Shown one piece after another: positions 2,022-28,029 of a stretch of 28,029 nucleotides of DNA. Within the stretch, counting starts at the first letter, position 1. Each line of letters starts with the position of its first letter. Made by a program: the position numbers and the translations under genes. The DNA comes from a virus, in the IMG/VR virus record IMGVR_UViG_3300006929_000084, positions 1 through 28,029 of that record. The stretch is one strand, 5' to 3'. Below the pieces are notes generated by a model. The model was not told where the DNA came from. It did no database searches and saw only the letters and a program-made list of their open reading frames with translations.

Positions 2022-3752
2022 GTGGACTTCTGGGATTCTCTGGCAAGCGAAGGCTTCGCCATCAATGCGCTGTCTGAGGGGCAATCAAAAATACTTTGCC
2101 CCAAGTGCAGTAGCACCCGCACAAAAAACAAACATGAGCATTGTCTGTCAATTTCTATTGACGGTGAGGGGGCGCAATGGCGTTGCCATCACTGCGATTG
2201 GACAGGAAATGTTTGGAGAAACAGCATGAATAGTAGCCCGTTTAAACGGAGCAAGCGGCCTGAAGTGGTCAAGCCAAAGGAGCCGCCGGTCATACCTGAT
2301 TTGGAAAAGCCTAGCGAGGGCGTGATCAAATGGTTCAGTGACCGAGGTATCTCTCGCAAGGTTGTCGAGATGGCTGGAGTAGAGACAGGTAGCGCGTACA
2401 TGAACGGAGAGAGCAAGCGAGCTATTGCGTTTGTGCATAGGGATTGCGGTGGCAAGATCATCAACGTCAAGTTCCGAAGCAATCAAAAGGAGTTCAGCCA
2501 GATCAAGAATGGAGCGAGGCTCCCCTATCTGTGGAACCTGATTGAGCCAAGCAACGACCAATTGATTATCACCGAAGGTGAGGTAGATGCATTAACATGC
2601 ATGGAGGTGGGATACAGCAACGTCATCAGCGTACCTGACGGTGCGAGTGACAAGAAGCTGTTGTGGGTGGAGGATCTGGAAGAGGAGTTAAAGCAGTTCA
2701 AGAGGATTGTTTTGCTCACGGATGGGGATTCCGTTGGTATCGCAATGCGCAATGAGCTTGCGCGTAGGTTGGGTAGGCATAGATGTTGGCGGGTTGATTG
2801 GCCAGAGGGCTGCAAAGACCCAAACGATATGCTCGTCGGCTACGGCGCGGACAAGTTCAAGGAGTTTGTGGATGGCGCAGAACCATGGCCGTTAAAAGCG
2901 TTGCATGAGACACGCTCATATGTGAACGATGCTTTTGCATTGCTGAATGGCGATGTGAAAACTGGTGTTAGCACAGGTATTGCCGCACTGGATCTGAACT
3001 ATCGGGTGAGGGCTGGCGAGCTAAACATTATCAGCGGAGCGCCGGGAGTTGGTAAGTCAGAATTCCTAGATCAAATCTGTTTAAACCTTGCGGCAATGGA
3101 GGATTGGAGGTTTGCAGTTTGCTCGTTTGAGAACCCAGTTGACGAACACATCAACAAGTTGGCAGCTAAATTTGTCGGAAAGCCAGCATGGGATGTGCGT
3201 AGCGGAGAGAAGATGAACCACAACGAGTGGTCAGAGGCGGTTAGTTTTATTGGCAAGCACTACTACTGGATCAGATCCGAAGACGAAGCGCCTACTGTGG
3301 AGTGGTGTTTGGAGAATGCAACCGCGTGTGTGCAGCGATACCCAAACGTGCGCGGCCTGATCCTTGATCCGTACAACGAGTTTGAACACCGTCGCCCTAG
3401 CGGGTGGACGGAAACGGAGTATGTGTCGCAGATGCTAGCCTCGCTCAAGCGTTGGGCAGCAGCAAACGAGTGCGCGATATTTCTGGTTGCCCATCCAGCG
3501 AAGCTGAGAAGGAATCAGGATGGGACGTTCCCTGTTCCAGAGCCATATGACATAGCTGGATCAGCAAACTTTTACAACAAGGCAGATAACATTCTAATTG
3601 TGGAGAGGGATTTCACGGAGGGATCGGATGACATCCGAGTGCATGTGAAGAAGATAAGATTCAAGCAGAGCGGTAGGGTGGGGACAGTCGATCTCAAATA
3701 CAACTACGTTGACGGTAGTTATCGGACACCAACAGGGGGGTTATCGGGATGA
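2022..3752 (+). CDS. T7 gp4-like primase-helicase
   Basis: A 576-residue replicative enzyme that would prime lagging-strand synthesis and unwind the fork. Domains in order: a zinc-binding module with C26-x2-C29 and C55-x2-C58; a TOPRIM primase core with E185 in LIITEGEVDAL and D234-G-D236; then a RecA-like hexameric helicase with Walker A GAPGVGKS (339-346), Walker B ending at D449 in GLILDP, and an H3-type LVAHPAK strand. Length and order match T7 gp4 and Twinkle. The start is a GTG at 2022, two bases after the upstream stop. The stop overlaps the next ATG as ATGA. GTTTAAAC occurs twice inside, at 2240 and 3079, in different frames. No DNA polymerase is visible in this window. Confidence 0.93.
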   Translation: MDFWDSLASEGFAINALSEGQSKILCPKCSSTRTKNKHEHCLSISIDGEGAQWRCHHCDWTGNVWRNSMNSSPFKRSKRPEVVKPKEPPVIPDLEKPSEGVIKWFSDRGISRKVVEMAGVETGSAYMNGESKRAIAFVHRDCGGKIINVKFRSNQKEFSQIKNGARLPYLWNLIEPSNDQLIITEGEVDALTCMEVGYSNVISVPDGASDKKLLWVEDLEEELKQFKRIVLLTDGDSVGIAMRNELARRLGRHRCWRVDWPEGCKDPNDMLVGYGADKFKEFVDGAEPWPLKALHETRSYVNDAFALLNGDVKTGVSTGIAALDLNYRVRAGELNIISGAPGVGKSEFLDQICLNLAAMEDWRFAVCSFENPVDEHINKLAAKFVGKPAWDVRSGEKMNHNEWSEAVSFIGKHYYWIRSEDEAPTVEWCLENATACVQRYPNVRGLILDPYNEFEHRRPSGWTETEYVSQMLASLKRWAAANECAIFLVAHPAKLRRNQDGTFPVPEPYDIAGSANFYNKADNILIVERDFTEGSDDIRVHVKKIRFKQSGRVGTVDLKYNYVDGSYRTPTGGLSG

Positions 3753-3982
3753 GCGCAAAGTTTTTGAAAGCGATACGCGCACAGGATGATGCGCACAGGT
3801 TGTTTGAGAAACCAAAGGTTTACGAAAAGCGCAAGCCTTTGACGGAAGAAGAAGTCGAGAGAGTGGCAAGGCTTTACAGCGAAGGCGTGACTCAGGCAGA
3901 GATTGCGCGAGCGATTAAGATTGCGCCGTCAAGTGTCTACAATGTGGTGCGTAGACACCTGCGGCGATTAGGTAGCGTTTAA
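3749..3982 (+). CDS. small helix-turn-helix DNA-binding protein
   Basis: A 77-residue protein, basic overall. Residues 46-68 form a clear helix-turn-helix of the Hin/resolvase or sigma-like type: GVTQAEIARAIKIAPSSVYN. There is no catalytic domain, so it is probably a regulator or DNA-organising protein. It overlaps the primase-helicase stop as ATGA and is likely translationally coupled to it. The last codons read GTT-TAA and lie inside a GTTTAAAC palindrome (3977-3984), which also supplies the stop of the converging minus-strand gene. It is one of two local candidates for the protein that reads GTTTAAAC; this is speculative. Confidence 0.7.
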   Translation: MSAKFLKAIRAQDDAHRLFEKPKVYEKRKPLTEEEVERVARLYSEGVTQAEIARAIKIAPSSVYNVVRRHLRRLGSV

Positions 3983-4395
3983 ACGTCAAGCATTCTTTCG
4001 ATTTCCTCGATGGCCTTGTTGCGCTCATCTTGGGATTGAAGGATGCCGACCTTGTCATCGACATAATCCTTGTCACCTAGATCCTTGATTGCTTTATCCA
4101 CTGCGCCTTCAAGTTTCCACTTGACCGAGTAAACATACTGACGGCTAACGCCTTCGTCTTCTGCGATGCTTGCCATACTACGCTCGCCCTCCCGTATGGC
4201 CAACCTTATGCGGTCAGCCCGTTCGGAGTTGCGCGTTGGCTTCTTCAAAGACAGGTACTCCTCCTCTGTCATTGCGCTCAAAAGGTATGGCCGCATGGTG
4301 CTTAGGGGTACGCTGATCTCCTCTGCGATCTGCTTGAGCGTACTCCCGTTGCGCCTTAGATGTACGGCAGCGGCGATCCATGGTACGCCAGACAT
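3979..4395 (-). CDS. double helix-turn-helix DNA-binding protein
   Basis: A 138-residue protein with two helix-turn-helix segments, residues 18-39 (STLKQIAEEISVPLSTM) and 73-94 (SMASIAEDEGVSRQYVY), and a charged, probably helical C-terminal tail. Two recognition helices in one chain fit binding to a long or palindromic site, so it is likely a transcription factor or DNA architectural protein. The chosen ATG at 4395 overlaps the upstream stop as TGATG; a longer upstream reading would run into the previous gene. It is the last gene of the minus-strand operon, and its stop lies in the GTTTAAAC palindrome shared with the converging gene. Target and function are unknown. Confidence 0.7.
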   Translation of the reverse strand: MSGVPWIAAAVHLRRNGSTLKQIAEEISVPLSTMRPYLLSAMTEEEYLSLKKPTRNSERADRIRLAIREGERSMASIAEDEGVSRQYVYSVKWKLEGAVDKAIKDLGDKDYVDDKVGILQSQDERNKAIEEIERMLDV

Positions 4396-4787
4396 CAGTA
4401 GTCCTCCGGCATTAGAACAGTCAGAGTCTCGTGCCCTGCATCCAAGATCAGCCACACCAGATCTTTGGCGTCGTTGTATGGGTACTGACCCATCACCATG
4501 CCGCCACGCTTGACGCTGGCTAGGTTTGTTTCCTTGTCTTCATCGCAGATGACACCCCAATCCAATCCGTTGAATCGGCGGAGTGTTGACTCAACCCATT
4601 CGTTTAAACGATCTGGAGTCATCGCATTAAGCAGTTGTTCCTCGGCGTTGAGAGTCATGGCAAAGTTCTTAACTCCGACCAAGACGTTTTGCGACGGCTC
4701 TTGTAGTTGAATGCGCACAGTGCGATCCATGCCTACATCCTCGCCCACATCAACCTTCTCGCCGCTCATGTTGTAAACATTACTCAC
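4395..4787 (-). CDS. hypothetical early protein
   Basis: About 130 residues, not recognised. The GTG at 4787 was chosen because AAGGAG lies seven bases upstream; an in-frame ATG at 4811 would place that ribosome binding site inside the coding sequence. The protein is acidic and mixed alpha/beta by eye, with a conserved-looking segment MTPDRLNEWVESTLRRFNGLDWGV in mid-protein and hydrophobic LVWLILDAG near the end. It overlaps both neighbours by a few bases, so it is part of the translationally coupled operon. GTTTAAAC at 4602 encodes R-L-N-E. No function can be assigned. Confidence 0.6.
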   Translation of the reverse strand: MSNVYNMSGEKVDVGEDVGMDRTVRIQLQEPSQNVLVGVKNFAMTLNAEEQLLNAMTPDRLNEWVESTLRRFNGLDWGVICDEDKETNLASVKRGGMVMGQYPYNDAKDLVWLILDAGHETLTVLMPEDY

Positions 4788-6940: not shown

Positions 6941-6970
6941 TTTTGGGTTCTCCTTTGTTGCGTTTAAACG

Positions 6971-7689: not shown

Positions 7690-7717
7690 GCGACCTCCTT
7701 TGTTGCGATGGTTTACT

Positions 7718-8750: not shown

Positions 8751-8790
8751 TGGCTTCTCCTTCGTTGCGTTTAAACAAAATGCCGAGGCT

Positions 8791-8904: not shown

Positions 8905-8973
8905 GTGAGGTGATTGACGGTGGAAGGCTTAGGTTCAGGTCATCGCGGCTCTCCTTTGTTGCGATGGTTTACA

Positions 8974-9012: not shown

Positions 9013-9819
9013 CTAAGCGGCCTGTTGGTAGGCCGCGCTCTCAGTCCATGCATCGTTGACCGTGGCCAGCGCTGCGTCCATGTCCTCGTACCCTGTGTCT
9101 CCTAGCATGGGCGGTAGGTACATGGCATCCTCTGGGATGTCCTTCATCTCCTCGACGCTGCCGTAGCCAGATACTGGCTTGTCGTAGGTGAACTCCATGA
9201 TGCGGAAGCACACTCGGCGTAGCATACTGGGGTGTGCCACAGCGAAGCTGATGCGATCAAGATCAAGCGGCTCGTCGGGTTGCTTGACCGTGATGAATAT
9301 GTGCTGCTCATCATACTGGCGATGCGTCTTGCTGATCTGCGTAGCAATCAACTCGACACGCTGCCCAGCCCGTTCGATCTGGTCGATCAGTGCAACCACT
9401 GCGGCACCCTTGCGGATCATCGCCTCAGTACTGGTGTACCACACAGCGCCGATGTCGCAGTAGATTCGCACAATCGGTAGCGGCTTGGCGTCCTCATCGT
9501 CCATGAACATCATGTGCATTGGCGCTCCGGCAGCGTAGCTGGGGACACAAACTCGCTGACCTGCCATGCCATACTCCCACTCAGGTCGTTTAAACGATGC
9601 CTCCTTTGCCTTGGCAAACTGAACGTCGGCGTCCATGGCATCGCGCCCCTCTGCCCAACCGCTGATCGCAAGCTGCTGTGATTCCTCAAAGGAATTAGAT
9701 CCGGTGAACTCGTGGGTGCCGCTGACCGATGATGGCTCATCGCCCCATGCCTCGTTCGGATCACGGTGCATATCTGCCATGCACTCGTCCCATGTTGCGT
9801 TGTACGTTGCTATGCTCAT
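9013..9819 (-). CDS. degenerate vWA-like partner of the AAA+ ATPase (DUF7192-like)
   Basis: A 268-residue protein whose start overlaps the AAA+ gene stop as TAATG. Residues 116-160 read IVRIYCDIGAVWYTSTEAMI, then RKGAAVVALIDQIERAGQRV and ELIAT. This is the strand-helix-strand order of a von Willebrand A domain as in CobT, with the MIDAS D-x-S-x-S reduced to D122-IGAVW. A second strand-helix unit follows (HIFITVKQ, DRISFAVAHPSMLRR). AAA+ ATPases of the CobS/MoxR type usually work with a vWA partner, so this is probably the partner or a substrate adaptor. The DUF name is from memory; the vWA assignment is inference. Confidence 0.5.
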   Translation of the reverse strand: MSIATYNATWDECMADMHRDPNEAWGDEPSSVSGTHEFTGSNSFEESQQLAISGWAEGRDAMDADVQFAKAKEASFKRPEWEYGMAGQRVCVPSYAAGAPMHMMFMDDEDAKPLPIVRIYCDIGAVWYTSTEAMIRKGAAVVALIDQIERAGQRVELIATQISKTHRQYDEQHIFITVKQPDEPLDLDRISFAVAHPSMLRRVCFRIMEFTYDKPVSGYGSVEEMKDIPEDAMYLPPMLGDTGYEDMDAALATVNDAWTESAAYQQAA

Positions 9820-10967
9820 TACGCTGCCTCCACGTTAGCGATGATACCGACCTCGATTTCATCCATGATTTTCTGCTTGTCAGTTTCACTGAAGCCTTTG
9901 TTCCAAATCGTCTGTGCCGCCACACGCTGCGGTGACACGCCAGCCGCTAGCAGCTTGGCACCCTTGACCGAAGCCCTTGGGCTTACGATGTAGCGCATTT
10001 TGTGATGCTCCACGGCGTGGCGAACAGCTTGGACATAGTCCACCCAAGTGTCGTTGCCAGCAATGGCTCGCTCTAGCGACTCGTCGTAACCCATGGTTAC
10101 GTTGCAGAAGCGATCAAGCGTTGCCATGTCCATGGGGTTGCGTCCCACATACTGTGCAGATGCACCGTGACCGAAGGTGTTGGCCGAAGCAATCACGACA
10201 AAGTCGGGGTGCTTTTCGACCATGCCGCCCTCGCCATCGTTCCCCAAAGGGAAGCTGGCAAAATCATTGGCCAGCGCAGCGTTCAAGGCCAGCAGCGCAT
10301 TGCTGGATGATGCGTCCATTTCGTCCATCAGGACGAGGCCACCATGTTTAAACGCCTTGTAGAAGTTGGTTTGTGAATACGAACCGTCCGGCTTGACGTA
10401 ACCGACTACGTCGTGATCGTACTTGATGGCACCGTAGCAGTAGAAGTCTCGGCCAAGCGCTTCAGCGATTTGCTTCGCAATGGTGGTCTTGCCTGATCCA
10501 GCAGGGCCAGCCACATACACGTTCTCGCCAACGGCTACCGTAGGTAGGATCTCATCGAACACTTCGTGAACATGAACATCACCGAGATCTACGATCTCAT
10601 CACCGATCACGATCTCGTGTCGGACAGTACGGGTAGCCGCCACCTGACGCTCCAGATCTTCGATCTTAGACTCAAGCCGCTCGGTGACTTGGGCCACCAT
10701 GCGATCCAGATCATCGCCGGTCAGCGTAGCTGCCTTGCCGCCATCAGGGCCATGTGCCCAGAGGGTGATCTTGTCTTCGACAGGCATCTGGGGGGACAGG
10801 CGGTACAGGGTGCAGAGCAGGGACAGAGCGGAACGCTCATCACGAGACAGGCCGTCAGCGATAATTGCGACGGCGCAGCCGAGGTTATGTGACTTAGTCA
10901 CACGCTCCAACCTTTCGGTCAGTTTGTTTAGGCGGCGTGGCTCGATTGTGTTAGAATGATCGAACAT
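9819..10967 (-). CDS. CobS/MoxR-type AAA+ ATPase
   Basis: A 382-residue ATPase. A helical N-terminal part, with a likely coiled coil at about 86-112, precedes the AAA+ core: Walker A GPAGSGKT (154-161), Walker B LVLMDE (211-216), sensor-1 N263 in VVIASANT, and arginine finger R286 in TLDRF. The spacing and GLVLMDEMDASSSNALLALN match CobS and its phage relatives. These use ATP to remodel partner proteins, often with a vWA protein, which here is the next gene. The ATG has AAGGAG eight bases before it in a composite GTTTAAAC-GCAACAAAGGAG leader (10976-10995). A GTTTAAAC also lies inside at 10346. The substrate is unknown. Confidence 0.85.
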   Translation of the reverse strand: MFDHSNTIEPRRLNKLTERLERVTKSHNLGCAVAIIADGLSRDERSALSLLCTLYRLSPQMPVEDKITLWAHGPDGGKAATLTGDDLDRMVAQVTERLESKIEDLERQVAATRTVRHEIVIGDEIVDLGDVHVHEVFDEILPTVAVGENVYVAGPAGSGKTTIAKQIAEALGRDFYCYGAIKYDHDVVGYVKPDGSYSQTNFYKAFKHGGLVLMDEMDASSSNALLALNAALANDFASFPLGNDGEGGMVEKHPDFVVIASANTFGHGASAQYVGRNPMDMATLDRFCNVTMGYDESLERAIAGNDTWVDYVQAVRHAVEHHKMRYIVSPRASVKGAKLLAAGVSPQRVAAQTIWNKGFSETDKQKIMDEIEVGIIANVEAA

Positions 10968-11006
10968 AGTTCGTACTCCTTTGTTGCGTTTAAACAGTGT
11001 GGAAAC

Positions 11007-11615
11007 CTAGTCTGTGACTAGGCATCCAGCGAGGTGGCAGGAAGGACAATGCGACTCAGCGGTGATGGTCGATTGCCACTTGAGCGAAGCTCGTGCGGTG
11101 AATCCGCATTCGTTGCAGTGGATCTTGAGCATACGAGTGCCTTGCTTCTTGCGAAGGTTGGCGTCGATTGCAGCGTGGGGATACTCTCCGAGTATTTCAG
11201 CGATCTCTTTGAACTGCTCAAGCAGCTCGGGGGAAGCTGGGGTCTGTGTCATCGGGCCGGTAAAGCCTACGGCTCTAGCGATTCGGGCAAACTCGCCCTT
11301 GTGGCCACAGTCGATGCCAGCCCAAACATGAATGAATTCATGTGTCAGGATACGCAGCACCTCGGTGACATCATCCACAAGTGGATTGATGAACACTTCC
11401 ATAGTGCCATCGGCACTGATTGATGCGTCGAATGCCTGACCTAGCACGACCTTGCCGCTCTTGGATCCACGATACCCGATAGGGAAGCCGCAGGACACAC
11501 GGTAGCGGCGGGATTGCCATGCGTCGGGTGAGATACCAGCATTGGCAAACACCATCTCAAACAACATAACAAGCGCAGCTTGTAACCATTCTTCTCGTGT
11601 CTTGTATGACTGCAT
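11007..11615 (-). CDS. SprT-like zinc metalloprotease
   Basis: A 202-residue protein with the SprT/Spartan signature: H92-E93-F-I-H96 in LTHEFIHVWAG, third zinc ligand H105 in CGHKGEF, and a C-terminal zinc ribbon with C167-x2-C170 and C190-x2-C193. Relatives in cells cut DNA-protein crosslinks; in phages the role is not known and might be removal of bound host proteins or a step paired with the adjacent AAA+ ATPase. It is the first gene of the long minus-strand operon, with CGCAACAAAGGAG (11623-11635) before its ATG and a hairpin-rich leader of about 420 bases further upstream. Confidence 0.85.
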   Translation of the reverse strand: MQSYKTREEWLQAALVMLFEMVFANAGISPDAWQSRRYRVSCGFPIGYRGSKSGKVVLGQAFDASISADGTMEVFINPLVDDVTEVLRILTHEFIHVWAGIDCGHKGEFARIARAVGFTGPMTQTPASPELLEQFKEIAEILGEYPHAAIDANLRKKQGTRMLKIHCNECGFTARASLKWQSTITAESHCPSCHLAGCLVTD

Positions 11616-11639
11616 AGCAGTACTCCTTTGTTGCGATTA

Positions 11640-12156: not shown

Positions 12157-12582
12157 ATGGGTAAGCAGGTCAGCGTGAAAGAACGCCTATTCGCTAGGTA
12201 TGTGGCCGAAGGCCGCACACAAGCGCAGAGTGCGCGTATGGCTGGCTACGCCAGTAATCCAGACAAAAAGGGGAGTGAGTTGGTTAAAAAGCCTGAAGTC
12301 GTAGACTTAATTAATCAGCGTGGCGCTGAATTGGCCGAGGATCGGGCCGTATCCCTACGGGAGCACCTCGATACGCTGGCTGCTTTGCGTGATGATGCGC
12401 GTGATGCTGGGCAATATAGCTCTGCTATACAGGCCGAGCACCATCGTGGCAAGGCATCGCGTCTGTATGTCGAGCAACAGGTGGTCGCCAAGGCCGATAT
12501 GGATTCACCTACGGTGATCTTGGAGCGTTTAAACGGATTGCTATCGCGTGGCGCACCCGATGCGCTCGATGCGCCGGACTAG
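12157..12582 (+). CDS. terminase small subunit
   Basis: A 141-residue protein. The N-terminal third, ERLFARYVAEGRTQAQSARM then AGYASNPDKKGSELVKKPEV, is the helix-turn-helix region typical of small terminase subunits that recognise the packaging site. A helical oligomerisation region follows (LREHLDTLAALRDDARDAG) and a short C-terminal tail that would contact the large subunit. The gene starts the rightward packaging block, 238 bp before terL. The start lacks a strong ribosome binding site, having only CGGG. GTTTAAAC at 12527 encodes R-L-N-G. Confidence 0.75.
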   Translation: MGKQVSVKERLFARYVAEGRTQAQSARMAGYASNPDKKGSELVKKPEVVDLINQRGAELAEDRAVSLREHLDTLAALRDDARDAGQYSSAIQAEHHRGKASRLYVEQQVVAKADMDSPTVILERLNGLLSRGAPDALDAPD

Positions 12583-12819
12583 CGCTCGCATAATGCGCAC
12601 AGGAGTCCCGCTCGTAGCGCGTTTACACGCCCCAGCGCACCCCCACCCCGCGCACACAGCGCAGGAGTCCCATACCTACCCGTATATACAAATATACACA
12701 GTCAGGCACCCCATTTTCCGAATGACCCCACCCCCTTAAATCGCAAATGAAGTTTACATTTATATGTCTACAAAAATTTTGCAAAAAAAATTTACATTTC
12801 TGTAAAGGATTAGTGCGAT
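12583..12819 (+). promoter_or_regulatory. terS-terL intergenic control region
   Basis: A 237-bp gap that begins C-rich and ends A/T-rich. CAGGAGTCCC occurs at 12600-12609 and 12662-12671, each preceded by GCGCA-type sequence. Two perfect palindromic elements follow: GTATAT-ACAA-ATATAC (12682-12697) and TTTACA-TTTC-TGTAAA (12791-12806). The second abuts the AAAGGAT ribosome binding site of terL and could hide it. TTTACATTT also occurs near 12752. It is a plausible late promoter, translational operator or pac/cos region; none is proven. Confidence 0.4.
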
Positions 12820-14349
12820 ATGTCAACCTCAATTACTGAGCAGCTTGATAGTGTAAAACAAATGTTGACGCCTGAAAGGATGTCAACGCTTTCTTCGGCT
12901 GATCGTATTCAAGTAATGGATTTGATGGAGGCGTTGGAGAAGTCTGTTCGTAGAGAGAGGGCGCAGGAAGACTTTCTTTCTTTTTGTTCTTCTGTATGGC
13001 CAGCGTTTATGGAAGGTGGGCACCACAGAAAGATGGCAAGGGCGTTTGAACGTGTTGCTAGTGGGGAGTGTAAGAGGCTTATGATTAACATGCCCCCTCG
13101 TATGGGTAAGTCTCAGCTTACCTCTTGGTTATTGCCAGCTTGGATTATGGGCAAGATGCCTGAGAAGAAAATTATTATGGCTTCTCACACCGCCGAGCTT
13201 GCTATTCGCTTTGGTAGAATGGTTAGAAACCTGATTGGTAGTGAAGAGTTTAAGGATGTCTTTCCCGAAACATCACTTACTGCTGACTCAAAGGCTGCTG
13301 GTCGCTTTGATGTATCAGGTGGTGGTGAGTATTTCTCTGTGGGTGTTGGTGGTGCGGTAACTGGTCGTGGTGCTGATTTGCTTATTATAGATGACCCGCA
13401 CTCAGAACAACAGGGGCAGCAAGCTGATCCAAAGGTATTTGATTCTACCTATGAGTGGTTTAGTTCTGGCCCTCGTCAGCGTCTTCAGCCCGGAGGCGCA
13501 ATCATTATTGTGATGACTCGCTGGAGTCAGAAGGATTTGTGTGGGCAAATCACAAGAGATTCTATGCAGCGAGATGGATCTGATGATTGGGAGGTGATTG
13601 AGTTACCCGCAATACTGCCGTCAGGTAGTTCGTTGTGGCCTGAATACTGGCCGATTGATGAATTAGAAAAGCTCAAGGCTGAACTGCCTATATCCAAATG
13701 GGAGGCGCAGTACCAGCAACAGCCTACATCTGAAGAGTCTGCAATCATTAAAAGAGATTGGTGGCAAGTTTGGGAGGAGCGTGATCCGCCTGATGTGTCG
13801 TTTGTGATTCAGTCTTGGGATACAGCGTTTATGAAACATGAACGGGCTGACTATTCTGCCTGTACAACATGGGGCGTGTTTTACAAAGAGAATGACGAAG
13901 GGATGCTTGCACCCAACATAATCCTATTAGATGCCTTAAAAGAGCGCATGGAGTTTCCTACGCTCAAGAAACGAGCTTATGAGATGTATGTGGATTGGCA
14001 ACCTGATGCATTTATCGTAGAAGCAAAGGCCGCAGGTGCGCCGTTGATCTATGAATTAAGGGCTGTGGGGATTAGCGTACAGGAGTACACTCCTTCTCGT
14101 GGCAATGATAAGGTGTCCCGTGTAAACGCTGTTGCAGATTTTTTTGCGTCAGGCATTGTTTGGGCACCACCGAAAAGATGGGCCGAGGAAGTGATTGAAG
14201 AGTTTGCCTCATTTCCTATTGGCGATCACGATGACTTGGTTGACTCATCAACACAAGCGTTACTTAGATTTAGGCAAGGCGGCTTTATTGCACTTGATCA
14301 CGATGATTATGAAGAAAGCCAGCCACGGCGAATTGCTAACTATTACTAG
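12820..14349 (+). CDS. terminase large subunit
   Basis: A 509-residue packaging motor. The ATPase domain has a Walker A-type MPPRMGKS (91-98) and Walker B LLIIDD (187-192). The C-terminal nuclease of the RNase H fold has D334 in QSWDTAF, E401-like acidic residues in the AFIVEAKAAG region, and a final acidic cluster GDHDDLVD (468-475). It cuts concatemeric DNA and pumps it through the portal. AGGA lies ten bases before the ATG, just after the TTTACA/TGTAAA hairpin. The stop is followed within four bases by GTTTAAAC (14353-14360) in the gap to the portal gene. Confidence 0.95.
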   Translation: MSTSITEQLDSVKQMLTPERMSTLSSADRIQVMDLMEALEKSVRRERAQEDFLSFCSSVWPAFMEGGHHRKMARAFERVASGECKRLMINMPPRMGKSQLTSWLLPAWIMGKMPEKKIIMASHTAELAIRFGRMVRNLIGSEEFKDVFPETSLTADSKAAGRFDVSGGGEYFSVGVGGAVTGRGADLLIIDDPHSEQQGQQADPKVFDSTYEWFSSGPRQRLQPGGAIIIVMTRWSQKDLCGQITRDSMQRDGSDDWEVIELPAILPSGSSLWPEYWPIDELEKLKAELPISKWEAQYQQQPTSEESAIIKRDWWQVWEERDPPDVSFVIQSWDTAFMKHERADYSACTTWGVFYKENDEGMLAPNIILLDALKERMEFPTLKKRAYEMYVDWQPDAFIVEAKAAGAPLIYELRAVGISVQEYTPSRGNDKVSRVNAVADFFASGIVWAPPKRWAEEVIEEFASFPIGDHDDLVDSSTQALLRFRQGGFIALDHDDYEESQPRRIANYY

Positions 14350-25156: not shown

Positions 25157-25852
25157 GTGGCAAATATCAATGGATGGGGTAGAGGCACTTGGGGCGAAGA
25201 TGCGTGGGGTACGCCCGACGTTATCGACGTTACAGGCGTTTCTGCAACCGGAGCCGTTGGTACAGTTACAGTTGATGCAGAAGCTAATGCATCGGTTACA
25301 GGAGTTGCTGGCACAGGTGCCGTTACGATTCCAACAGTCGATGCAGAAGCAAATACTACTGTTACAGGGGTCGCGGGTACAAGTGCGCTTGGCAGCATAT
25401 CGCTTGTTACAAACAATACCCTTCCTGTCACAGGTAATGCAGGAACCGGCGCTGTTGGAACAGCGACAGTCGATGCAGAAGCAAATACCGCTGTCACAGG
25501 CGTTTCAGGAACATCTGCGGTTGGCACCGTTACAACCGATGCAGAAGCTAATGTTGCGCTTGCAGGAGTTTCAGGAACGGGCGCTGTTGGTAGCGCTACA
25601 GTTGAGGCAAAAGCTAGCACTTCAGTTACAGGGGTGTCGGCAACAGGCAGTGTGGGTTCTGTCACTACGACAGCTGATGCTAACATTGTGCCTACTGGCG
25701 TTAGTGCTACTGGAGCGATTGGCCCATCAAATGTTTGGGGGATTGTGGACAGAGATCAAACGCCAAGTTATTCAACAATATCAACTAGCCAGACGCCTAA
25801 TTGGACGGCTATTGATGATAACCAAACACCTAGCTGGGAAGAGGTTGCCTAA
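25157..25852 (+). CDS. repetitive beta-rich tail protein
   Basis: A 231-residue protein from a GTG at 25157, opening MANINGWGRGTWGEDAWGTP and followed by about nine copies of an approximately 20-residue unit of the type VTGVSGTGAVGTVTVDAEAN, then a distinct C-terminus with D-x-x-Q-T-P repeats (RDQTPSYST, TSQTPNWTA, DNQTPSWEE). The repeats should form a beta-solenoid or fibrous stalk. DNA repeats such as GATGCAGAAGC recur at roughly 60-bp intervals, so copy number could change by recombination. The stop overlaps the next start (TAATG). Confidence 0.65.
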   Translation: MANINGWGRGTWGEDAWGTPDVIDVTGVSATGAVGTVTVDAEANASVTGVAGTGAVTIPTVDAEANTTVTGVAGTSALGSISLVTNNTLPVTGNAGTGAVGTATVDAEANTAVTGVSGTSAVGTVTTDAEANVALAGVSGTGAVGSATVEAKASTSVTGVSATGSVGSVTTTADANIVPTGVSATGAIGPSNVWGIVDRDQTPSYSTISTSQTPNWTAIDDNQTPSWEEVA

Positions 25853-25983: not shown

Positions 25984-28029
25984 ATGGCAACCTATGTTAA
26001 TGATTTGCGCCTTAAAGAAATCGCCACCGGAGACGAAGCGGGAACTTGGGGCACCAGCACAAACACTAACCTCGAATTAATTGCAGAGGCATTTAGTTTT
26101 GGCACAGAAGCAATCACGACGAACGCTGATACTCATACTACTACTATTGCTGACGGTTCTACTGATCCCGGTAGGAGTCTTTTCCTTAAATACACTGGCA
26201 CACTCGATTCTGCTTGTACCATAACTATTGGCCCGAACACTGTTAGTAAGCTCTGGCTCATAGAAAATGCTACTTCGGGGTCACAGAACATCATCATCAA
26301 GCAGGGCAGTGGCGCGACTGTCACCATAGCCAATGGTCAAACCAAAGCCATCTATTCAGATGGTGCCGGATCAGGCGGTGCGATGGTTGATGCCTTCCAA
26401 GACCTGTCGATCCCAGACTTGTTCATTGACGATGACCTGACGTTTACCTCCGACAGTGCAGTCATCACATTCGGTGCAGATGGCGACACTACGCTCACGC
26501 ACACAGACGGATCTGGCCTGACGCTCAACAGCACCAACAAGATCATGTTCAATGACGCGAGCCAGTTCATACAAGGCTCTAGTGCTACGGTCTTGTCACT
26601 TGGTGCGACGGATGAGATTGATCTTACTGCCACTGCGATGGACTTCAATGGCACCGTTACGATCTCAGGCGACACAACGCTTGAAGATGGCGCTGATCTT
26701 ATCACCGCATCCGCTGGCAGCTCCAACTTCCGCGCAGGTGTCAACGCAGGTAACAGCATCACCTCTGGCGGCAATCAAAACACCGTAATAGGTGATGAAG
26801 CGGGTACGGCTATCACTACGGGCGATAATAACACGGCGCTTGGTCACGCAGCTTTACAAAACACTACGACAGCATCAGAGAACGTAGCTATAGGAAAAAG
26901 TGCACTTGCCACAAATATACTTGGTAGTAAATCAGTAGCAGTTGGTCGTGGGGCTTTATCAAACCAAAATTACGCTACAGCTACTGATGCACACAACGTA
27001 GCGGTGGGGCATGAAGCTGGTGTAAACGTCACTACGGGCTTTGATAATGTGCTCTTGGGAGGTCTTGCAGGAGATACTCTCACTACAGGTTCTTACAACA
27101 TTGCTATTGGAAAAAGCGCTCTTGCGGCAGAAGACGCTAATGGCAAAAACGTAGCGATTGGATACCAAGCTCTCACTGCTTTGAATGCTGGCACTGATGC
27201 GTTTAACGTAGCCATAGGCCAAGAGGCGGGGCATGACCTGACTACGGGAGTCCAGAACACCTTGGTAGGAGGTTTGGCTGGAGACGCTTTAACGGATGCA
27301 GATTACAACGTTGCAGTGGGAGTGACTGCTCTAGGTGGAGATACTCTTGGGAGCAAATCTACAGCCATTGGATATAGCACCCTTGTAAATCAAAACTTTA
27401 CTACGGCGACAGATTCCTTCAATACGGCTGTAGGGTTTGAGGCAGGTGCCGCAGTCACCACGGGCATCAAAAATGTATTGGTCGGTGGCCTAGCGGGTGA
27501 CGCTTTTACTGATGCGGACAAAAACATTGCTATCGGCTACTTAGCACTGAGCGGAGATACATTAGGCTCTAAAAGTGTTGCCATCGGTAATGCCGCTTTG
27601 GGGAGTCAAAACTTCACCACTGCGACAGATTCCTACAATGTAGCTATTGGCGATGAGGCTGGTACGGCAATTACTACGGGAACCCTTAACACCTTGATCG
27701 GTGGAGAGGCAGGTGATGCGCTTACCTCTGGCAATTCTAACGTCGCAATAGGTTATCAAGCACTTACAGCCGACACGTTGGGCGATAGAAACATTGCTAT
27801 CGGCAATGGCGCACTGGCGACACAAAACTTTACGACTACTACAGATGCTTACAATGTAGCAATTGGTCAAGAAGCAGGTGTGTCAGTCACCACAGGAGTC
27901 CGCAACACGCTCATCGGCGGTCTTACTGGTGATGCTCTTACGACAGGAAATAACAATACGGCATTAGGTTTCAACGCTTTAGCAGCCGACACATTAGGCG
28001 ACAGATCCGTTGCCATAGGCGTTGATGCA
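25984..28029 (+). CDS. large tail fibre with 72-residue YadA-head-like repeats, 3' end beyond the window
   Basis: An open frame of 682 codons that runs off the right edge. The N-terminus MATYVNDLRLKEIATGDEAG, then TWGTSTNTNLELIAEAF, is a typical virion-attachment domain of marine phage fibres. From about residue 250, N-x-A-x-G-type beta-helix units (NVAIGYQAL, NTLIGGLAGDAL, SVAIGNAAL) recur in blocks of 70-72 residues (210 then 216, 216, 216 bp), as in YadA/Hep-Hag trimeric adhesin heads. It would recognise the host surface. The segment around 26150-26760 is visibly richer in GC and C-ending codons than the genes before it. No stop or chaperone domain is visible. Confidence 0.75.
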   Translation, partial: MATYVNDLRLKEIATGDEAGTWGTSTNTNLELIAEAFSFGTEAITTNADTHTTTIADGSTDPGRSLFLKYTGTLDSACTITIGPNTVSKLWLIENATSGSQNIIIKQGSGATVTIANGQTKAIYSDGAGSGGAMVDAFQDLSIPDLFIDDDLTFTSDSAVITFGADGDTTLTHTDGSGLTLNSTNKIMFNDASQFIQGSSATVLSLGATDEIDLTATAMDFNGTVTISGDTTLEDGADLITASAGSSNFRAGVNAGNSITSGGNQNTVIGDEAGTAITTGDNNTALGHAALQNTTTASENVAIGKSALATNILGSKSVAVGRGALSNQNYATATDAHNVAVGHEAGVNVTTGFDNVLLGGLAGDTLTTGSYNIAIGKSALAAEDANGKNVAIGYQALTALNAGTDAFNVAIGQEAGHDLTTGVQNTLVGGLAGDALTDADYNVAVGVTALGGDTLGSKSTAIGYSTLVNQNFTTATDSFNTAVGFEAGAAVTTGIKNVLVGGLAGDAFTDADKNIAIGYLALSGDTLGSKSVAIGNAALGSQNFTTATDSYNVAIGDEAGTAITTGTLNTLIGGEAGDALTSGNSNVAIGYQALTADTLGDRNIAIGNGALATQNFTTTTDAYNVAIGQEAGVSVTTGVRNTLIGGLTGDALTTGNNNTALGFNALAADTLGDRSVAIGVDA
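27061..28029 (+). repeat. 216-bp coding tandem repeats of the tail fibre
   Basis: The GG(L/E)xGDAL motif starts at 27061, 27271, 27487, 27703 and 27919, giving spacings of 210, 216, 216 and 216 bp. The units are diverged in DNA but kept in protein, so this is an old repeat under protein-level selection, not a recent duplication. Confidence 0.8.

Follow-up and report, generated by a model that had tools for sequence, protein, structure and literature searches.

The window analyzed here is the whole of the IMG/VR virus record IMGVR_UViG_3300006929_000084, comprising 28,029 nt from an uncultivated phage. Its minus strand carries a set of three genes encoding a SprT-like protease, an AAA+ ATPase of the MoxR clade and a 268-residue protein of the DUF7192 family, for which structure prediction gives a vWA-like fold with a degenerate MIDAS. 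We propose that the ATPase is a remodeling motor, with DUF7192 as its minimal vWA adaptor. This is the best supported part of our interpretation, and taken alone we consider it highly probable. The complete reading adds that the adaptor grips its target without metal, that SprT stands beside the motor and that a host or DNA-bound target is preferred; to this we assign a probability of about 0.6. Hundreds of phages, the Staphylococcus Kayviruses and Listeria phages among them, encode DUF7192 under the label 'unknown function', and a literature search returned no paper on it. Our analysis provides the family with a predicted structural identity and a testable mechanism.

The gene set and its linkage across phages

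The three genes form a single minus-strand operon with the protease first, and the ATPase and DUF7192 genes overlap by one base. Both features had been noted in a preliminary description of this DNA, and the coordinates are confirmed.

11007–11615, minus strand: SprT-like zinc metalloprotease, 202 amino acids, phrog_6361 (profile matches, motifs, predicted structure)
9819–10967, minus strand: MoxR-clade AAA+ ATPase, 382 amino acids, phrog_249 and AAA_5 (profile matches, invariant motifs)
9013–9819, minus strand: DUF7192 protein (PF23822/phrog_1909), 268 amino acids, putative minimal NorD-like vWA adaptor (profiles, predicted structure)
9819, minus strand: one-base overlap TAATG between the ATPase stop codon TAA and the following ATG of DUF7192
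11623–11635, minus strand: repeated leader CGCAACAAAGGAG before the SprT gene, with a second copy before the ATPase gene at 10976–10988 (repeat search)

The SprT and ATPase genes are separated by 39 nt, and each is preceded by a repeated leader ending in CGCAACAAAGGAG together with an AGGAG ribosome site. At up to two mismatches there are 11 copies of the leader in the window, compared with 0.75 expected. Copies precede start codons at 1703–1715, 6950–6962, 7695–7707, 8757–8769 and 8951–8963 in addition to the two listed above, and in places the leader is fused to the palindrome GTTTAAAC, giving GTTTAAACGCAACAAAGGAG. About 15 small open reading frames follow the DUF7192 gene on the minus strand, reaching down to 3979. 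A promoter scan of the region found sites no more commonly than expected by chance, and there are seven terminator-like sites where 2.5 are expected. In comparisons with unsaturated dS, dN/dS is ~0.06 to 0.25 for all three genes, indicating purifying selection. Given these low values, and the matches to PF23822, AAA_5, phrog_249 and phrog_6361, the three open reading frames are real genes.

The palindrome GTTTAAAC is itself abundant. There are 22 copies in the window against 0.47 expected, a number that none of 100 shuffles reached. They lie between genes and also inside them in different reading frames, and are densest in the early half. Relatives (L003–L019, L051–L054, L072, L074, L106 and L108) contain ~9–16 per 10 kb despite their diverged proteins. 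The density is 3.7 per 10 kb in locus L041 and 0–2.4 in the more distant lineages with the three-gene set (L105–L120), and Pelagibacter phage HTVC027P has one copy in 30 kb. GTTTAAAC looks like a lineage-specific site acting at the level of DNA, for a regulator, a methylase or segregation. Two resolvase-type helix-turn-helix proteins (3979–4455 and 3749–3982), encoded where the ends of two gene blocks meet, are candidates for binding these sites. Near the end of the window (25222–25645 and 26797–28019) there are tandem 66-nt protein repeats (22 amino acids, VTGVSGTGAVGTVTVDAEAN-like) and repeats spaced by ~216 nt, probably part of a tail-fiber gene.

The protease matches phrog_6361 with E = 1.4e-34. 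Its score against the Pfam SprT-like model is 17.6 bits, below the gathering cut-off of 25.6, and homologs that are ~43% identical carry the annotation SprT-like protease. The features that characterize SprT-like proteins, namely HExxH, the third histidine, the zincin fold (as predicted) and the zinc ribbon, are all present.

11328–11342, minus strand: HEFIH zinc-binding and catalytic motif H92-E93-F-I-H96, with the third histidine H105 at 11301–11303 (alignment of relatives)
11037–11117, minus strand: C-terminal zinc ribbon C167xxC170...C190xxC193 (CxxC/CxxC pattern)

H92, E93, H96, G104 and H105 are unchanged across 11 relatives, and the zinc ribbon is partly lost in L041. The predicted model (pLDDT 78.7) aligns to the SprT domain of SPRTN (6mdw) with a VIA Z of 7.5. 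A sequence search of the SprT profile against solved structures gave no meaningful match, and there was no profile similarity between SprT and the cyanophage peptidase.

The ATPase and DUF7192 genes are near-invariant neighbors. DUF7192 lies directly downstream of 55 of the 60 distinct ATPases for which at least 600 nt of downstream sequence was available, the five exceptions being cyanophage CobS-type ATPases and a clamp loader. Viewed from the other side, the ATPase is directly upstream of DUF7192 in 55/62 distinct sequences with at least 900 nt available upstream, and the seven exceptions are second paralogs in mycobacteriophage-type genomes. Most of the virus-contig loci were retrieved with DUF7192 queries. 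Seven isolate loci were retrieved from the ATPase alone (Sinorhizobium phiM5, Staphylococcus A5W, Listeria LP-110 and LP-048, Acinetobacter P577, Alteromonas R22Y and Gordonia Octobien14), and all seven have DUF7192 as the next gene. The pair is found in phages of Staphylococcus, Listeria, Mycobacterium, Gordonia, Acinetobacter, Alteromonas and Sinorhizobium. In the phage collection 236 Staphylococcus records match the ATPase query and as many match DUF7192; the Mycobacterium counts for the two queries are 79 and 82. The preliminary description had suggested an AAA+/vWA pairing; the fold predicted for DUF7192 is vWA and the pair co-occurs widely, so that suggestion is strongly supported.

The second DUF7192 paralog of the mycobacteriophages lies ~3 kb from the ATPase pair (L001, 7488–8339; L032–L037; L045, 7984–8844), and perhaps one motor is served by two adaptors in these phages. 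In phiM5 a small open reading frame lies within the ATPase gene in another frame (ORF 65; L024, 1349–1546), and its annotation states that it was detected in the proteome of the phage particle.

SprT is a facultative add-on to the ATPase-DUF7192 pair. Of 48 non-redundant lineages, 23 have it upstream of the pair and one (L041) has it downstream. When an upstream SprT is mapped as a label onto the ATPase tree, 3 changes are required, compared with 16.4 in shuffles; the number of SprT gains is unsure since this is a quick tree with long branches. A scan from the SprT side gave 50 loci. The ATPase is next in all 44 that have at least 450 nt downstream, and both ATPase and DUF7192 follow in all 37 that have at least 1,700 nt, these counts describing the linked subfamily from which the search patterns came rather than all SprT genes. 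In cultured phages the pair is mostly without a nearby SprT, from which it follows that SprT is not needed for the motor. All three genes together were not seen in any cultured phage examined. Among HExxH proteins beside SprT-less pairs, the sole plausible case was an unrelated secreted-type HELGH protein by the Tunturi_4 pair.

The motor pair may work alone, with SprT an independent enzyme that shares its transcript and acts, for example, in the removal of DNA-protein crosslinks. We give this somewhat less than an even chance. It would explain why most isolates have the pair without SprT, and why SprT proteins of Arthrobacter and Microbacterium phages (~43% identical to that of the window) are encoded without the pair and adjoin DNA-replication genes. 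The resemblance of the SprT model to the SPRTN protease domain is also in keeping with such a function. Yet linkage within the subfamily is strict (44/44 and 37/37), and the gene order has been rearranged in L041. The preliminary description had suggested that the protease could form one machine with the pair. That proposal is upheld in part: the strict linkage and the rearranged locus favor it, while the many pairs lacking a nearby SprT and the SprT genes lacking the pair do not. In the linked lineages, we put the odds that the protease is coupled to the motor at about even.

The main rival with respect to role is virion assembly, in which the set would act as a chaperone equipped with a peptidase, of the kind put forward for group 2.2 jumbo phages and Acidianus two-tailed virus. 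In the jumbo phages the same three activities are found in a pair comprising MoxR and a metallopeptidase-vWA protein, for which a role in virion assembly was proposed (PMC7824862), and the cyanophage peptidase-vWA protein adjoins a CobS-like ATPase. However, the window set does not resemble the cyanophage type in sequence, and heads an operon that diverges from the terminase (12157–14349) and head genes. Moreover, in GuuelaD, phiM5, LP-110 and Octobien14 the set or pair lies near the genome ends amid small genes. We therefore regard a function in assembly as unlikely, and because the operon points away from the virion genes a host or DNA-bound target is preferred. The chances of a host- or DNA-directed role rather than a structural one seem to us evenly balanced.

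Predicted structure of DUF7192

The 268-residue protein is assigned to DUF7192 by PF23822 (E = 1.6e-34; 120 bits against a cut-off of 27) and phrog_1909 (E = 1.3e-33). We built an AlphaFold2 model from an alignment of 27 relatives, with a mean pLDDT of 82.8 and pTM of 0.78. In the model a strand (116–122) is followed by a helix (131–150), a pair of strands (154–164 and 171–179) and helices (187–211), distal to which are two short strands and a C-terminal helix. A Foldseek comparison of the model with the PDB placed vWA domains of NorD, taken from NorQ-NorD complexes, in the first five ranks (E = 1.4e-4 to 4.6e-3, the leading ones at 1.4e-4 to 2.3e-4), and the subsequent matches include many other vWA domains, such as those of Ku, factor B and VWF. 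In a viral structure library DUF7192 proteins rank first and phage CobT/vWA proteins next. Using VIA-align, residues 1–263 align collinearly with 364–638 of Paracoccus NorD. The Z values are 7.9 for the vWA domain of Rea1/Midasin (Rea1-MIDAS) and 7.2–7.4 for most NorD chains, where a value under 8 is by itself middling on the tool's own scale. For that reason the vWA call rests on the agreement in kind between the matches and on the partnership with a MoxR ATPase, and on this basis a vWA fold is supported by the model. The protein had been described earlier as vWA-like, and the prediction agrees, with NorD as the best solved match.

There is no match between DUF7192 and any vWA at the level of sequence. 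Comparison with the cyanophage CobT vWA by hhalign gave a probability of 0.4%, and a profile search against solved structures returned no meaningful match. This, together with the Z values and a model whose core has fewer strands than that of a complete vWA domain, would be expected if DUF7192 adopted some other Rossmann-like fold without kinship to vWA. But most of the top structural matches are vWA domains, the foremost of which are partners of a MoxR ATPase, and we find another fold very improbable.

The following elements of the vWA-like protein were examined by alignment of the family.

9442–9456, minus strand: degenerate MIDAS loop D122-I-G-A-V126 (family alignment)
9217–9219, minus strand: invariant R201 (32/32 sequences)
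9283–9285, minus strand: K179 (30/32 sequences)
9160–9165, minus strand: Y219-G220 (Y219 in 31/32, G220 in 30/32)
9508–9573, minus strand: residues 83–104, the most conserved segment, in the place taken by the pore 'finger' in NorD (conservation and collinear NorD alignment)

The intact DxSxS sequence is absent from the window protein, and the loss of the MIDAS serines claimed in the preliminary description is thus correct for D122-I-G-A-V126. Among 32 non-redundant relatives, 17 have N and 9 have D at the first position, and serine or threonine occupies position 3 in 11 and position 5 in 20; a complete DxTxS is kept only in phiM5. These counts indicate that the MIDAS is degenerate family-wide and not just in the window.

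Residues 83–104 have a mean relative entropy of 2.01, compared with 1.44 overall, the highest of the segments compared. They lie just before strand 116–122 with a consensus near YDVxGxxVDVGxFLxGEPECM. In NorD the MIDAS strand is immediately preceded by the finger (403–448), which inserts into the pore of NorQ and contacts the helix-2 inserts; the C-terminus of NorD holds the post-sensor-1 loop (PMC13036017). G87 precedes D122 by 35 residues, and in the cyanophage CobT-like vWA the G of TGVLD (G-x-L-D) is ~36 before DWSGS. We infer that residues 83–104 could be the counterpart of the NorD finger, an assignment made post hoc by position and pattern in a block where the pLDDT is low (roughly 50–74). 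NorD MIDAS mutants retain NorQ binding and the target stays inactive (PMC9976466). Since they still bind NorQ, loss of the MIDAS need not abolish docking, and would change how the target is bound.

The ATPase

The ATPase matches phrog_249 (E = 5.2e-53), which is labeled 'porphyrin biosynthesis', and AAA_5 (E = 4.9e-10, above the cut-off). On searching its profile against solved structures Midasin, CobS and CbbQ come first, and NorQ is also listed. The catalytic motifs are intact, with invariant columns for Walker A and B, the sensor and the arginine finger.

10485–10508, minus strand: Walker A GPAGSGKT, residues 154–161 (G154, G157, G159 and K160 invariant in 19 relatives)
10383–10403, minus strand: putative helix-2-insert segment G189...G195 (G189 and G195 invariant; role by analogy with NorQ, PMC13036017)
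10320–10325, minus strand: Walker B D215-E216 (invariant)
10110–10112, minus strand: candidate arginine finger R286 in ATLDRF (invariant; role assigned by position)
9975–9977, minus strand: candidate sensor 2 R331 (invariant; role assigned by position)

The segment containing G189 and G195 sits between Walker A and Walker B, where a helix-2 insert would be expected.

That the ATPase is a CobS cobaltochelatase subunit, and the set an auxiliary metabolic gene for vitamin B12, is suggested by the phrog_249 label and is the published reading for an Alteromonas phage carrying this very pair (PMC11705849) and for an archaeal-virus CobST (PMC8651126), but we reject it as scarcely credible given a score of 16.6 bits against the CobS equivalog model (NCBIfam TIGR01650) with its cut-off of 558.55, a partner that is not CobT, and a phage distribution in which 236 Staphylococcus records match each gene of the pair. 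The database label 'porphyrin biosynthesis/CobS' is probably wrong, and we argue that this ATPase is a protein-remodeling motor rather than a vitamin B12 gene. Staphylococci are not known to make B12. We also rejected a reading of the set as a defense system, because PADLOC gave weak AAA matches only.

Proposed mechanism and comparison with known systems

In the mechanism that we favor a single DUF7192 subunit would be bound by a hexamer of the ATPase. The finger would be the conserved stretch ahead of strand 116–122, reaching into the pore of the ring to contact the helix-2 inserts, and the rim would be gripped by the C-terminal helix. With the adaptor held at these two points, ATP turnover could twist or pull it against a bound target, in the style of NorQ-NorD. 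As the metal site is degraded, the adaptor would have to grip its target without metal, perhaps through K179, R201 and Y219-G220. SprT, encoded beside the pair in the window lineage and about two dozen others, would be placed to cut protein exposed by the motor. Should adaptors without a MIDAS dock in the manner of NorD, the family would set apart two roles, motor docking by the finger and target gripping by the metal site.

A bolder version of this would have DUF7192 founding a class of metal-independent vWA adaptors, in which finger docking is kept and fixed side chains replace the MIDAS grip. Together with SprT it would form a split remodel-and-cut machine, stripping and destroying specific host DNA-bound proteins early in infection. 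We think this version distinctly unlikely. The main text of the Kayvirus transcriptome papers gives no expression timing for the ATPase-DUF7192 pair.

MoxR-vWA pairs of phages and archaeal viruses have been published previously (PMC7824862, PMC8651126, PMC7911831), and the design of a motor plus partner is already known. What is new is the type of partner and the three-gene set, i.e. the identification, from its predicted structure, of DUF7192 as a stand-alone vWA-like adaptor with a degenerate MIDAS, its near-invariant pairing with the ATPase, and the split SprT-ATPase-DUF7192 cassette.

NorQ-NorD resembles the phage pair in the clade of its motor, in the vWA fold (predicted here) and in an alignment that is collinear over nearly all of the 268 residues, with a conserved DUF7192 segment at the finger position and the C-termini aligned. 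It differs in that DUF7192 has no N-terminal domain or linker and a degraded MIDAS, and in that the phage-encoded set is without nitric oxide reductase, the target of NorQ-NorD. The jumbo-phage MoxR/metallopeptidase-vWA and cyanophage 'CobS/peptidase' systems likewise bring together a phage-encoded motor, a vWA protein and a zinc-peptidase motif. There, however, the peptidase is fused to a vWA with an intact MIDAS (DWSGSM in cyanophages), whereas here the genes are separate, the MIDAS is lost and the peptidase is of the SprT type; the cyanophage peptidase-vWA representatives compared have no profile similarity to the window proteins. CobST shares an AAA+ ATPase with a vWA partner next door, but our ATPase is far below the CobS cut-off and its partner is not CobT. 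The protease shares with SPRTN and SprT the zincin motif, the predicted fold and the C-terminal zinc ribbon, and differs in scoring below the Pfam cut-off and in being linked to a MoxR-vWA pair. Finally, RavA-ViaA and CbbQ-CbbO are cellular and have other targets, but share the working principle of a motor with a vWA adaptor.
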